Source: Acidobacteriota bacterium
GTDB lineage: Bacteria > Acidobacteriota > Holophagae > Holophagales > Holophagaceae
Direction: 5' to 3'
DNA length: 41,525 nt
Assembly: GCA_018269025.1 (NCBI GenBank)
Contig: JAFDVN010000110.1
Span: 1-41,525, forward strand
Shown here: positions 6,729 to 18,175 of the stretch, piece after piece
Numbering within the stretch: position 1 is the first letter of the stretch
How the letters are laid out: each line of letters opens with the position of its first letter
The notes under the pieces: generated by a model
What the model was told of the DNA's origin: nothing
The model's input: only the letters and a program-made list of their open reading frames with translations
Databases searched by the model: none
Made by a program: the position numbers and the translations under genes

Positions 6729-6871
6729 GGATGCAGTGTCGGGAGCTTCCGCGCCCAAGGCAAGTCAGACCTGCGGCAGCGCGACGATGATGTTTAAAAA
6801 TAGTTCATCGCGGATTCGCGGGGAGATGATCGCCTCCAGGTACGCCACGACCAATCCGCCCGTAACGACCT

Positions 6872-7076
6872 GGAACACGGAGCTCACAGAGAGCCGCAGA
6901 GGACACAGAGGGGGTTCGGCGGCTCGAACATGGAAGCCGCCCGCCAAAGGCGGGCTTGCCGCTTCGCGGCAAGGTTGAGGGCGCGAGGGTGGGAGGCCCT
7001 CAACCAATGGCTTCCGCTGGCAGTTCAGAGGTGGACCTCTGTGCCCTCTGTGTTTTCTCTGTGGCCTCTGCGTTCC
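6872..7076. repeat. Nested nonamer hairpin, ACACAGAGG type, enclosing a cloverleaf
   Basis: Left arm 6872-6912 (words such as TCACAGAGA, CCGCAGAGG, ACACAGAGG) pairs imperfectly, with a one-base bulge, with right arm 7035-7076, the reverse complement of CAGAGG/CACAGAG words. The central 120 nt contain the cloverleaf annotated separately. The interval 6759-7167 between two minus-strand genes has no convincing gene; this element is its main content. Confidence 0.75.
6932..7015. other. Three-armed cloverleaf-forming sequence (RNA or cruciform), unknown function
   Basis: The closing stem GGAAGCC (6932-6938) pairs with GGCTTCC (7009-7015). Inside are three contiguous perfect hairpins: GCCCGCC/GGCGGGC (6939-6945, 6949-6955; loop AAA), TTGCCGC/GCGGCAA (6956-6962, 6966-6972; loop TTC) and GGTTGAGGG/CCCTCAACC (6973-6981, 6997-7005; 15-nt loop). 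Only three nucleotides at the junction are unpaired. It is not a tRNA: there is no anticodon arm, T-loop or CCA. Strand and expression are unknown. Confidence 0.7.
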
Positions 7077-7167
7077 TGCTTTGGTCGCCCTTGGTGTGAT
7101 CTGAGGTACCTCACATGGGGTCTGAAATCGGCGATTCTTCCTGGAATTACGCGAAAAGCCTTAAAAA

Positions 7168-8079
7168 TCAGTACCCCCAGGCCCTCAACCTCGGCTCCGC
7201 CCAGGCTCGCCATCCACCTGGATAATCCCGCCCCGCATCCAGGTGTCCCGCGCCAGGCATGACGGAGAGCGGGGCTGCGCACGCGGCAGCGATGGCCTGC
7301 ACTCCCGGCAAGGGGGTTATGGTATCGGCGCTTCCCGTCAGTAACGCGATGGGCGTGTGGAGGCCCCGAGCAGCCTTAAGGGGTGAGACCGCATCCGGGT
7401 CGAAGCTCGCGATGCGCCCGGCGCGCCACAGCGCCACACGCTCCGCCGGGCGCGCGAGGAGTTCGAGGCTTCCGAGCGTGCCGCGCAGATCATTGCGCGC
7501 AGCGTCCCTCAAGTCCTTAAAGGGCGACTCCAGAAGCGCGCCACCGAGGGGTCCGCCTTCCGCTTCGAGATCGCGCAAGGCGAGCAGCGCCACGCCCGCA
7601 CCCTGGCTGGCGGCGACAAGGACGATGCGGTTTCGCGGAACGCCGCTCGCTTCGAGGAAGCGCACGACGCTCACCACATCCCACTGCTCGTGGGCTCCCA
7701 GGGTACAGGGCAGGTCGGGATGCTGGTCGCGCCCCCGGAAGGTGAAGATCGCGCCATCCCAATCCGGCAAATCCAAGAGCCGCCCCGCCGCTCCCCAAGC
7801 ATCGTCGCCGAAGCCGTGAAGAGTTATGACGACCCCCTTGGCGTGAGGACGATGGAGCCAAAACAGGTTCAGCGGCACCCCGCCACCACCGATCAGCACA
7901 TGCTCCGTCCAGCGCCCGTCCTTCCCAGCCAACCGCGCGAGGAACGCATCGCGATTAGTAAGGGTCCGCGTCGGCGCGGGCGGGTGCAGCAGAAGGGATG
8001 GCAGCAGGAAACCCGCCACCATCGAAGTCGCAGCGTAGAAGATCGCGGTCGCAAACAGGGTGGAAAGGAGACGGCGCAT
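7168..8079 (-). CDS. Membrane-anchored alpha/beta hydrolase
   Basis: This 303-aa serine hydrolase has an N-terminal membrane segment or uncleaved signal (about 5-32), so it likely acts facing the periplasm. The oxyanion-loop HGFG is at about 88-91, the nucleophile elbow AASQG places Ser158, Asp252 lies in LLTGSADTITP and His279 in GAGHLD, giving a complete catalytic triad. The elbow is AxSxG rather than GxSxG, as in several prolyl-oligopeptidase-like and YfhR/BEM46-like hydrolases. The start ATG 8079 precedes the hydrophobic segment; no strong ribosome site is seen. It lies 37 nt downstream of the 96-aa gene and may be cotranscribed with the E1 gene. Substrate unknown. Confidence 0.85.
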   Translation of the reverse strand: MRRLLSTLFATAIFYAATSMVAGFLLPSLLLHPPAPTRTLTNRDAFLARLAGKDGRWTEHVLIGGGGVPLNLFWLHRPHAKGVVITLHGFGDDAWGAAGRLLDLPDWDGAIFTFRGRDQHPDLPCTLGAHEQWDVVSVVRFLEASGVPRNRIVLVAASQGAGVALLALRDLEAEGGPLGGALLESPFKDLRDAARNDLRGTLGSLELLARPAERVALWRAGRIASFDPDAVSPLKAARGLHTPIALLTGSADTITPLPGVQAIAAACAAPLSVMPGAGHLDAGRDYPGGWRAWAEPRLRAWGY

Positions 8080-14424: not shown

Positions 14425-14436
14425 AAAGAATAGTTG

Positions 14437-14505
14437 TCCGCAGATTACGCAGATGACGCCGATTCAAAACCCAAATCAATCTGCGTCATCGGCGTAATCT
14501 GCGGA
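14437..14505. repeat. Nonamer hairpin, CCGCAGATT type, after valS
   Basis: Arm 14437-14464 (CCGCAGATT, ACGCAGATG, ACGCCGATT) pairs with 14478-14505 with two mismatches around a 13-nt loop. Both mismatches are CGCAGAT versus CGCCGAT word variants placed in opposite order on the two arms. It lies 12 nt after the valS stop. Confidence 0.85.
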
Positions 14506-14521
14506 TAAACCCCTGTCTTTC

Positions 14522-15804: not shown

Positions 15805-15881
15805 TTTATCCGCAGATTACGCCGATGACGCCGATTTCAAGCGGGACCTAATCTGCGTCATCGGCGAAATCTGCGGATAAA
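15805..15881. repeat. Nonamer hairpin, CCGCAGATT type, before the oxidoreductase gene
   Basis: Arm 15805-15836 (TTTATCCGCAGATT, ACGCCGATG, ACGCCGATT) pairs with 15850-15881 with three mismatches around a 13-nt loop. The wording is the same as the hairpin at 14437-14505. It lies between divergent genes, so a terminator role is hard to explain here; it forms part of the leader of the gene at 15898. Confidence 0.85.
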
Positions 15882-15897
15882 GCTTTAAACTCTTCCC

Positions 15898-18057
15898 ATG
15901 GCCACTCCCCGTGTCTCCGCCGCTGGCGGCTTTGCCGCGCTTCGCTATGTGCTGAGGAAGGGCCAGCGCGTGGGCCTCTGGAAGCTGTGGAAGCGCATGC
16001 GGTCGAAGAACGCGTGCAAGACCTGCGCGGTGGGCATGGGCGGCGCGCGGGGCGGCATGGTGAACGAGGCGGGCCACTTTCCCGAAGTCTGCAAGAAGAG
16101 CGTTCAAGCCCAAGCGGGCGATATGCAGGCGGCGATCCCCGAGGCCTTCTTCCGAACGAATTCCATCGCGGCGCTGTCGCGCCTGAGCCCGCGGGAGCTG
16201 GAGGAATTGGGTCGCCTCGCGTTTCCGATCTTGGCGGAACCGGGCGACACCCACTTCCGTCGAGTCACCTGGGACGAGGCCATGGCGGCGACCGCCACGG
16301 CCTTTCAGACGACGAAACCGGAAGAGGCCTTCGTCTACAGCTCGGGCCGCAGCAGCAACGAGGCGGCCTTCCTGCTCCAACTCATGGCACGCGCCTACGG
16401 CACGGCGAACATCCACAACTGTTCCTTCTACTGCCATCAGGCCAGCGGAGTCGCACTCCAGCAGGTCTACGGCAGCGGCACGGCGAGCATCACGCTGGAC
16501 GATCTCGACAAGGCCGACTTCGCCCTCGTCATCGGCGCGAACCCCGCGAGCAACCACCCGCGCCTCATCACCCAGCTCGTGAAGCTGCGGCGGCGGGGCG
16601 GAAAGGTGATGGTCATCAATCCGCTCAAAGAGCTTGGGCTCGTGCGCTTCCGGGTGCCGTCCCTCGTGAAGAGCCTCGTCTTCGGATCGAAGATCAGCGA
16701 CCTCTACCTTCAGCCCCACATCGGCGGCGACATCGCCCTCCTGAAGGGATTACTCAAAGGTCTGATCGAACAAGGTGGCGTGGATGAAGCCTTCGTCGAG
16801 GCCCACACGAGCGGATGGGAGGCGGTGCGCGCAGATATCGAAGCCACGCCCTGGGCCATGGTCGTCGGTGCCTCCGGCCTGAGCCGCGCTCAACTCAACG
16901 AAGCCGTCGCGATGCTGATGACGGCCAAGCGCGGCATCCTCATGTGGGCCATGGGCCTCACCCACCATGTGCATGGCGTGGACAACATCCTCGCGCTCTC
17001 GAATGTCGCGCTCGCGAAGGGCTGGTTGGGGCACGAAGGCTCGGGCCTTCTGCCCATCCGCGGCCATTCCAATGTGCAGGGCGTGGGTTCCGTGGGCGTC
17101 GCGCCGGGGTTGAAGAAGGCCTTCGCGGACAAGCTCGACGCGCTCTATGGCATCAAGGCGGCGGCGGGCCAGGACACCTACGCCTCCATGGAGGCCGCGC
17201 ACAAAGGCCGCATCCAGGCGTCGCTCCAGTTCGGCGGCAACCTCTTCGGATCGAACCCGGATCGCGCGTGGGCGGCGGAGGCCTTGCAGCGCATTCCCTT
17301 CACGGCCATGGTGAGCACCAAGCTCAACGAAGGGCACCTTCACGGCCGCGGGCAGACGACGGTGATCCTGCCCGCCCTCGCCCGAGATGAGGAACCTGAG
17401 ACGACGAGCCAGGAATCCATGTTCAACCTCGTGCGGCTTTCGGAAGGTGGCGTGCCTTTCCCCAGCGGCGAGCTGCGAAGCGAGGTGGCGATCCTCGCGG
17501 AACTGGCCGAGCGCATCCTGCCCCCCGGGCGCTTCGATTGGAAACGGCTGCGGAGCCATCAGGCCCTTCGCGAGGAGATCGCCAAGGCCGTGCCTGGCTA
17601 CGCGGAGGCCGCAGGTGGCAAAGAGTTCCAGGTGGAGGGCCGCACCTTCCACACGCCAGTCTTCGCCACGGGCGATGGGAAGGCCCACTTCGCGCCGACG
17701 CCGATGCCCGAGCCCCTGCGGGGCGACGAACTGCGCCTCATGACGATCCGAAGCGAGGGCCAGTTCAACACCGTCGTCTACGAAGAAGAAGATCTCTACC
17801 GCGGCGTGCGACGACGGGATGTGGTGCTCATGGCTTCGGAAGACGGGGCGCGGCTCGGCATCCGGGAAGGCCAGGAGGTGCGCGTCAGCTCCGAGCGCGG
17901 TGCCATGACCGTGCGCGCCGCCTTCGTGGACATCCGCCCCGGCAACTGCGCCATGTACTACCCCGAAGCCAACGCCCTCGTCCCCGCGCGCCTCGATCCC
18001 CGCTCCAAGACGCCCGCCTTCAAGGCCGTGCCGGTGCGGATCGAAGCGAAAAGCTGA
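15898..18057 (+). CDS. Molybdopterin-dependent oxidoreductase, FdhF/YdeP family
   Basis: This 719-aa formate-dehydrogenase-alpha-like enzyme binds a bis-molybdopterin cofactor. The N-terminus has C40-x2-C43 and C65 as candidate iron-sulfur ligands (ACKTC, EVCKK). A metal-ligand region CSFYCHQASG (C179-H180) follows, then the MGD-binding blocks (GANPASNHPR, GLTHHVHGVDN, GHEGSGLLPIRGHSNVQG, GGNLFG). The C-terminal molydopterin-dinucleotide-binding domain begins near 610 (MTIRSEGQFNT). Length and layout match the YdeP group (about 760 aa), which has an acid-resistance link in E. coli but no settled reaction. The start ATG 15898 was chosen because the conserved basic N-terminus follows. No fdhD, electron-transfer subunit or Tat signal is seen, so it is likely cytoplasmic. 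Confidence 0.9.
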   Translation: MATPRVSAAGGFAALRYVLRKGQRVGLWKLWKRMRSKNACKTCAVGMGGARGGMVNEAGHFPEVCKKSVQAQAGDMQAAIPEAFFRTNSIAALSRLSPRELEELGRLAFPILAEPGDTHFRRVTWDEAMAATATAFQTTKPEEAFVYSSGRSSNEAAFLLQLMARAYGTANIHNCSFYCHQASGVALQQVYGSGTASITLDDLDKADFALVIGANPASNHPRLITQLVKLRRRGGKVMVINPLKELGLVRFRVPSLVKSLVFGSKISDLYLQPHIGGDIALLKGLLKGLIEQGGVDEAFVEAHTSGWEAVRADIEATPWAMVVGASGLSRAQLNEAVAMLMTAKRGILMWAMGLTHHVHGVDNILALSNVALAKGWLGHEGSGLLPIRGHSNVQGVGSVGVAPGLKKAFADKLDALYGIKAAAGQDTYASMEAAHKGRIQASLQFGGNLFGSNPDRAWAAEALQRIPFTAMVSTKLNEGHLHGRGQTTVILPALARDEEPETTSQESMFNLVRLSEGGVPFPSGELRSEVAILAELAERILPPGRFDWKRLRSHQALREEIAKAVPGYAEAAGGKEFQVEGRTFHTPVFATGDGKAHFAPTPMPEPLRGDELRLMTIRSEGQFNTVVYEEEDLYRGVRRRDVVLMASEDGARLGIREGQEVRVSSERGAMTVRAAFVDIRPGNCAMYYPEANALVPARLDPRSKTPAFKAVPVRIEAKS

Positions 18058-18162
18058 TCCACAGATTTCACAGATTTCACAGATTTCACAGATTTCACAG
18101 ATTCCTATGAGGAGGGTTCGATTGGCTGTTTCTAATCTGTGGAATCTGTGAAATCTGTGGAT
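18057..18162. repeat. Nonamer hairpin, TCACAGATT type, five tandem words
   Basis: The left arm holds five tandem 9-mers, CCACAGATT followed by four TCACAGATT (18059-18103). The right arm 18134-18162 holds three complementary words. A 29-nt stem with one mismatch forms between 18057-18085 and 18134-18162. It starts inside the oxidoreductase stop codon (18055-18057) and is followed by a 12-bp perfect palindrome GGATGATCATCC (18159-18170). The unequal word number on the two arms shows that arms gain or lose words. Confidence 0.85.
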
Positions 18163-18175
18163 GATCATCCACTAG

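Follow-up and report, generated by a model that had tools for sequence, protein, structure and literature searches.

Our analysis shows that the three-armed cloverleaf detected in the window (the whole 41,525-nucleotide stretch of Holophagaceae DNA that was analysed) belongs to an interspersed repeat, of which it forms the centre, and does not stand alone as an RNA gene. It makes up the tip of a long palindrome in the DNA, non-autonomous and dispersed in Holophagaceae, and the searched unit, which we have referred to as the module, comprises three abutting hairpins on a closing stem, which is itself carried by a stem of nonamer repeats. This module is very probably kept at the DNA level, not at the RNA level. 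For the whole, we lean slightly towards a palindromic DNA element whose tip is a junction offered to a structure-specific enzyme. The features of the window copy are listed in Table 1.

Table 1. Position and basis of the features of the window copy.
Feature	Position	Strand	Basis or remark
Target-site duplication, left copy TTAAAAAT	6794–6801		perfect direct repeat of 8 bp on both sides of the element
Whole 359-bp ISL3-type MITE	6802–7160	+	conservation begins and stops here among own-genome copies
Left terminal inverted repeat AGTTCATCGCGGATTCGCGGGGA (consensus GGTTCATCGCGGA...)	6802–6824	+	end common to own-genome copies
Left nonamer array, CACAGAGNN type	6872–6911	+	inverted repeats I1, I4, I5, I6
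Cloverleaf	6932–7015	+	closing stem 6932–6938/7009–7015 plus three hairpins; fold and covariation
Closing stem GGAAGCC/GGCTTCC, 7 bp	6932–6938/7009–7015	+	fold
Hairpin 1, GCCCGCC-AAA-GGCGGGC	6939–6955	+	7 bp, 3-nt loop
Hairpin 2, TTGCCGC-TTC-GCGGCAA	6956–6972	+	7 bp, 3-nt loop
Hairpin 3, 10 bp, 13-nt loop (stem 6973–6982/6996–7005)	6973–7005	+	inverted repeats; shortened compared to full copies
Unpaired junction bases AAT	7006–7008	+	fold
Right nonamer array, CTCTGTGNN type	7036–7076	+	direct-repeat family D1 and inverted pairs
Right terminal inverted repeat (reverse complement GGCTTTTCGCGTAATTCCAGGA)	7139–7160	−	inverted match to left end
Target-site duplication, right copy TTAAAAAT	7161–7168		exact 8-bp repeat

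Folded as RNA, the 84-nt core had a minimum free energy of −57.5 kcal/mol, compared to a mean of −37.4 (sd 3.5) for shuffled sequences (z −5.8), and none of the 200 shuffles was as stable. The original prediction of a closing stem around three abutting hairpins was recovered as described, including the closing stem, the first two hairpins and the three unpaired junction bases; only the third hairpin, given there as 9 bp with a 15-nt loop, had to be corrected to the dimensions in Table 1. When the nonamer arms were included and DNA parameters applied, both strands adopted the same four-way junction (z −6.7 and −7.2). Full copies have a long third arm, and that of the window copy is short because 25 nt have been deleted between CCCTCAA repeats in hairpin 3. 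In a Geothrix paludis copy (L185, 7785–7899) this hairpin is instead a long poly-G/poly-C, which may be an assembly artefact. The cloverleaf had been judged not to be a tRNA, in agreement with the lack of any ARAGORN match, and Rfam, at E-values up to 1, found no RNA family covering it.

As had been described, the cloverleaf lies inside an inverted nonamer array (6872–7076), and the gene-free region of some 400 nt noted around it is a gap of ca. 409 nt (6759–7167) that coincides almost exactly with a 359-bp element plus its target duplication. Searching the genome of origin revealed copies along the whole nonamer-cloverleaf-nonamer stretch, the similarity reaching window positions 6803–7162, with about eight further copies or fragments (contigs C91, C27, C155, C16, C93, C125, C2 and C193). 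At its ends the element has imperfect inverted repeats (GGTTCATCGCGG... and the reverse complement of ...CGCGAAGAGCC). Three copies have an exact 8-bp duplication (window, TTAAAAAT; C91, CATTCTTG; C2, AGAAAATC), that of C27 matches at 7 of 8 bases, and in the remaining copies the duplication has decayed or is lacking. ISL3 elements duplicate 8 bp of their target. The left end of the C91 copy (GGTTCATCGCGGATCTGCGGGG) is identical at 21 of 23 bases to the end of an ISL3 insertion sequence in locus L055 (GGTTCTTCGCGGATCTGCGGGG), and ISL3 transposase genes of Holophagaceae in L054 and L058 have near-identical ends and exact 8-bp duplications. The terminal inverted repeats (TIRs), the 8-bp duplications and the same ends on ISL3 transposase genes in the family therefore identify the window element, with near certainty, as an ISL3-type MITE. 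Such transposase genes were found in 22 of the 61 family genomes, including one of the same genus (G010), and none was found in the genome of origin (76% complete). No protein-coding gene was recognized inside the element, the ORFs overlapping it being without significant Pfam match. It shares with bacterial ISL3-type MITEs its non-coding nature, imperfect TIRs starting with GG, the 8-bp duplication and a matching ISL3 insertion sequence in relatives; however, its interior is not the remnant of an insertion sequence but a nonamer hairpin, the core of which, a conserved four-way junction, also occurs outside the MITE.

The copies on C91, C27 and apparently also C93 occupy loops that belong to other nonamer hairpins. 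A shortened copy of 176 bp (L006, on C2 of the genome of origin, G000) has a left end that begins inside hairpin 3 (GGTTCCTCGCG...) and an exact 8-bp duplication; here a hairpin strand may have replaced the TIR. Contig C193 stops within a MITE copy (L031), and more copies are thus probably absent from the assembly.

The covariance search proposed in the original prediction found module copies across Holophagaceae, many of them in Geothrix. With a first covariance model, built on six copies from the genome of origin, 16 of 77 Holophagaceae genomes were found to contain the fold, and with a second, 14 of 41 genomes of the class. Among the matches listed for the second model there were at least 26–30 in each of four Geothrix genomes (G031, G038, G040 and G042), counts that include a few reverse-strand duplicates and are otherwise probably incomplete. 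The named contigs with matches came from Geothrix species and Holophagaceae MAGs. A phylum-wide search, in which 10 candidates per genome were scored, suggests at most tentatively that the module is absent outside Holophagaceae, and blastn detected no plasmid match.

Most copies in the genome of origin ride inside the ISL3-type MITE. The module is not tied to it, since we found at least three settings, i.e., this MITE, a second MITE type and copies without outer TIR. The second MITE, in G019, has the ends CCTGATTATCGGC...CTCAGCC and exact 8-bp duplications in L103, L107, L109 and L110; its end motif occurs 68 times in that genome and a reversed-pattern control 0 times. Four copies of the genome of origin (C36, C170, C197 and C166) have neither kind of TIR and only nonamer arms of other units, for example CTTCGTGNN and CTTGGTGNN. 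Two Geothrix genomes carry the core at one orthologous site in opposite orientations. Orthologous-site copies in two Geothrix genomes, at ca. 90% identity, look old and not freshly moved, which counts against the reading preferred below.

Across copies, the letters of the stems change almost completely while the pairing stays. The original prediction would have been refuted by a lack of other copies, or by copies whose changes break the pairing without compensation; we found many copies, with two-sided changes at 46 of 49 pairs (94% of cells paired) in a smaller alignment of 29 copies and compensatory changes at 47 of 49 pairs (93.5% of cells) in a larger one (A8, 81 best-strand copies plus 14 weaker, mostly reverse-strand rows), figures that lean upward because the copies were chosen by the structural model and the alignments fitted to it. 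The larger alignment contained 1157 compensatory cells compared to 367 in shuffles, and covarying pairs were far above both shuffles and slid controls. Folded one by one with DNA parameters, 76 of the 81 copies gave exactly three branches on a closing stem; of 405 mononucleotide shuffles, 42 yielded a junction of this kind with no more than five bases unpaired, the criteria behind the two counts being non-identical.

The mismatches bear on which nucleic acid is constrained. An RNA constraint is expected to favour G–T over A–C, while a DNA palindrome or neutral decay is not. In the 81 copies both were equally frequent (85 G–T and 80 A–C cells), and therefore any constraint that exists acts on DNA, not RNA. 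A structured RNA transcribed from the repeat (a small RNA, riboswitch-like or ribozyme-like), one of the options first considered, would account for the very stable fold and the strong covariation, but the lack of a G–T excess, the negative Rfam search, the absence of promoter (sigma-70-type) and terminator patterns and the inverted core at an orthologous site make it very improbable.

Template switching at quasi-palindromes is an established process that can perfect palindromes in the absence of function. The main rival to our reading is accordingly a functionless palindrome, a passive hitch-hiker whose hairpins are made and kept perfect by intrastrand template switching in replication and which spreads only as MITE cargo. 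It would fit the presence of the module in two different MITE types, the slippage-type deletions in hairpin 3 of the window copy and of C93, and the apparent poly-G/C replacement in L185. However, the topology (two short hairpins and a long one, a closing stem and few junction bases) persists across genera despite the change of stem sequence, four separate stems in register are not expected from hairpin correction alone, and there are copies without TIRs. We regard this rival as possible, with the chances clearly against it.

The position of the elements relative to genes was compared with what a transcription terminator, an insulator or an mRNA-stabilising hairpin located after genes would show. 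Some elements are directly downstream of stop codons and, in a crude gene-context analysis, convergent neighbours outnumbered divergent ones (13 and 6), as such a role would predict; however, the same analysis placed 24 of 43 elements between tandem genes, there is no T-tract terminator pattern, and a simple hairpin would suffice where here there is a three-hairpin junction. A role of this kind is improbable. The clusters in Geothrix were also considered as integron cassettes, a reading that was dropped because the intervening genes are ordinary (panB, panC, panD, RNase E/G and capsule genes) and the elements have mixed orientations.

Palindromic intergenic DNA dispersed in tens of copies per genome is also typical of REP/BIME/REPIN repeats, and RAYT (Y1 tyrosine) transposases, the enzymes that would move such a repeat, are present in some Acidobacteria (PMC3733652). 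The module is much larger, though, with nonamer arms and a three-hairpin core, and the 359-bp length and 8-bp duplications of the element are unlike REPs, which are palindromes of 20–40 bp and carry a GTAG or CGTC tag. No Y1_Tnp or RAYT gene was found in the genome of origin (76% complete), and we consider a REP/REPIN-type repeat moved by a RAYT extremely improbable.

The outer arms of the module are inverted 9-nt arrays, with a periodicity peak at lag 9, and the nonamer pattern was found 12 times in the window where 0.27 were expected. Arrays of the same kind, among them the CTCTGTGNN type seen in the window, surround genes of the GxxExxY family (TIGR04256/PF13366), with a gene of the PD-(D/E)XK superfamily, as classified by Pfam, in place of the cloverleaf. 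By threshold score, nonamer arrays bracketed 12 of 21 GxxExxY genes in Holophagaceae and 14 of 21 in other Acidobacteriota families, while in both sets none of the 59 control windows passed, and when upstream and downstream flanks were scored against each other 13 of 18 genes matched their own partner best. Many of the genes outside Holophagaceae have CTCTGTG arms resembling those of the window, and the inverted 9-nt arrays around GxxExxY genes across Acidobacteriota (loci L293–L317) are mostly CTCTGTGNN-like. Within the genus of the window genome, inverted nonamer arrays directly enclose GxxExxY genes at the place that a cloverleaf could occupy, and in Geothrix one such gene is flanked on both sides by cloverleaf elements. 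One site, between thiolase and 3-hydroxyacyl-CoA dehydrogenase genes, was compared among different genera (L221 and the orthologous L284–L286 and L288, with G003, G014 and G008 left out): the genome of origin has a nonamer hairpin with a GxxExxY gene, G010 and G011 lack the gene and have a hairpin built of another unit, G004 has apparently one arm and G017 nothing. No publication on this association was found in the limited set of literature searched.

Holliday-junction resolvases are included in the PD-(D/E)XK superfamily. The AlphaFold model of GxxExxY was of low confidence (pLDDT 61), too weak for a claim about its fold, and the Foldseek matches of this model, some of them to Hjc Holliday-junction resolvases, were not significant. 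GxxExxY had no match among PDB sequences, and none was detected on viral contigs.

Taken as a palindromic element with a junction tip, the module would act as follows. The two inverted 9-nt arrays form a stem ending in the four-way junction of the closing stem and the three hairpins, and the palindrome, single-stranded or extruded, would offer a structure resembling a Holliday junction; a structure-specific nuclease or recombinase might then copy, invert or move it, and pairing would be kept because only foldable copies get processed. The original prediction had offered both a composite of repeats, which it proved to be (a cloverleaf in a nonamer hairpin within an ISL3-type MITE), and a folded single-stranded DNA recognised by an enzyme; the latter is compatible with our data and is the reading we prefer, although a search of the incomplete genome revealed no Y1/RAYT transposase gene. 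That the module functions through a putative structure-specific enzyme seems to us evenly balanced. The best candidate for this enzyme would be GxxExxY, whose genes sit in similar nonamer hairpins, an identification that from sequence evidence we put forward only tentatively. More speculative still, the inverted nonamer arrays could form the ends of selfish or mobile DNA belonging to a so far undescribed class, with a gene form holding the GxxExxY nuclease and, in Holophagaceae, a non-autonomous form holding the four-way junction as candidate substrate.

Integron attC sites are single imperfect hairpins with core sites of the GTTRRRY/RYYYAAC type and go together with an IntI integrase; they share with the module the proposed action as a folded single strand and differ from its four perfect stems. 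AAV-type inverted terminal repeats, which serve viruses as replication origins and have two internal arms, are similar in having a multi-arm junction on top of a repeat-array stem, although nothing points to a Rep gene or a role in replication for the module. The limited literature searched, on repeats of nine nucleotides, on those of Geothrix and on GxxExxY, contained no description of the module. It represents a family of naturally covarying junctions made of DNA, not RNA, in which selection on folded DNA becomes testable, and some of the Geothrix with at least 26–30 copies per genome are cultured strains. The multi-copy GxxExxY nuclease genes, of unassigned function, are now linked to 9-nt repeat arrays, and if this link were causal, arrays and genes would be explained as one mobile system.

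The window contains three other nonamer hairpins. The one at 14434–14511 (TCCGCAGATTACGCAGATGACG.../...AATCTGCGGATAA) is without cloverleaf and has nearly the arms that bracket a GxxExxY gene on contig C187. The one at 15805–15883 is built of the same unit, ATCTGCGGA, with a short loop, and that at 18056–18166, also without cloverleaf, consists of ATCTGTGAA units around a loop of ca. 30 nt.
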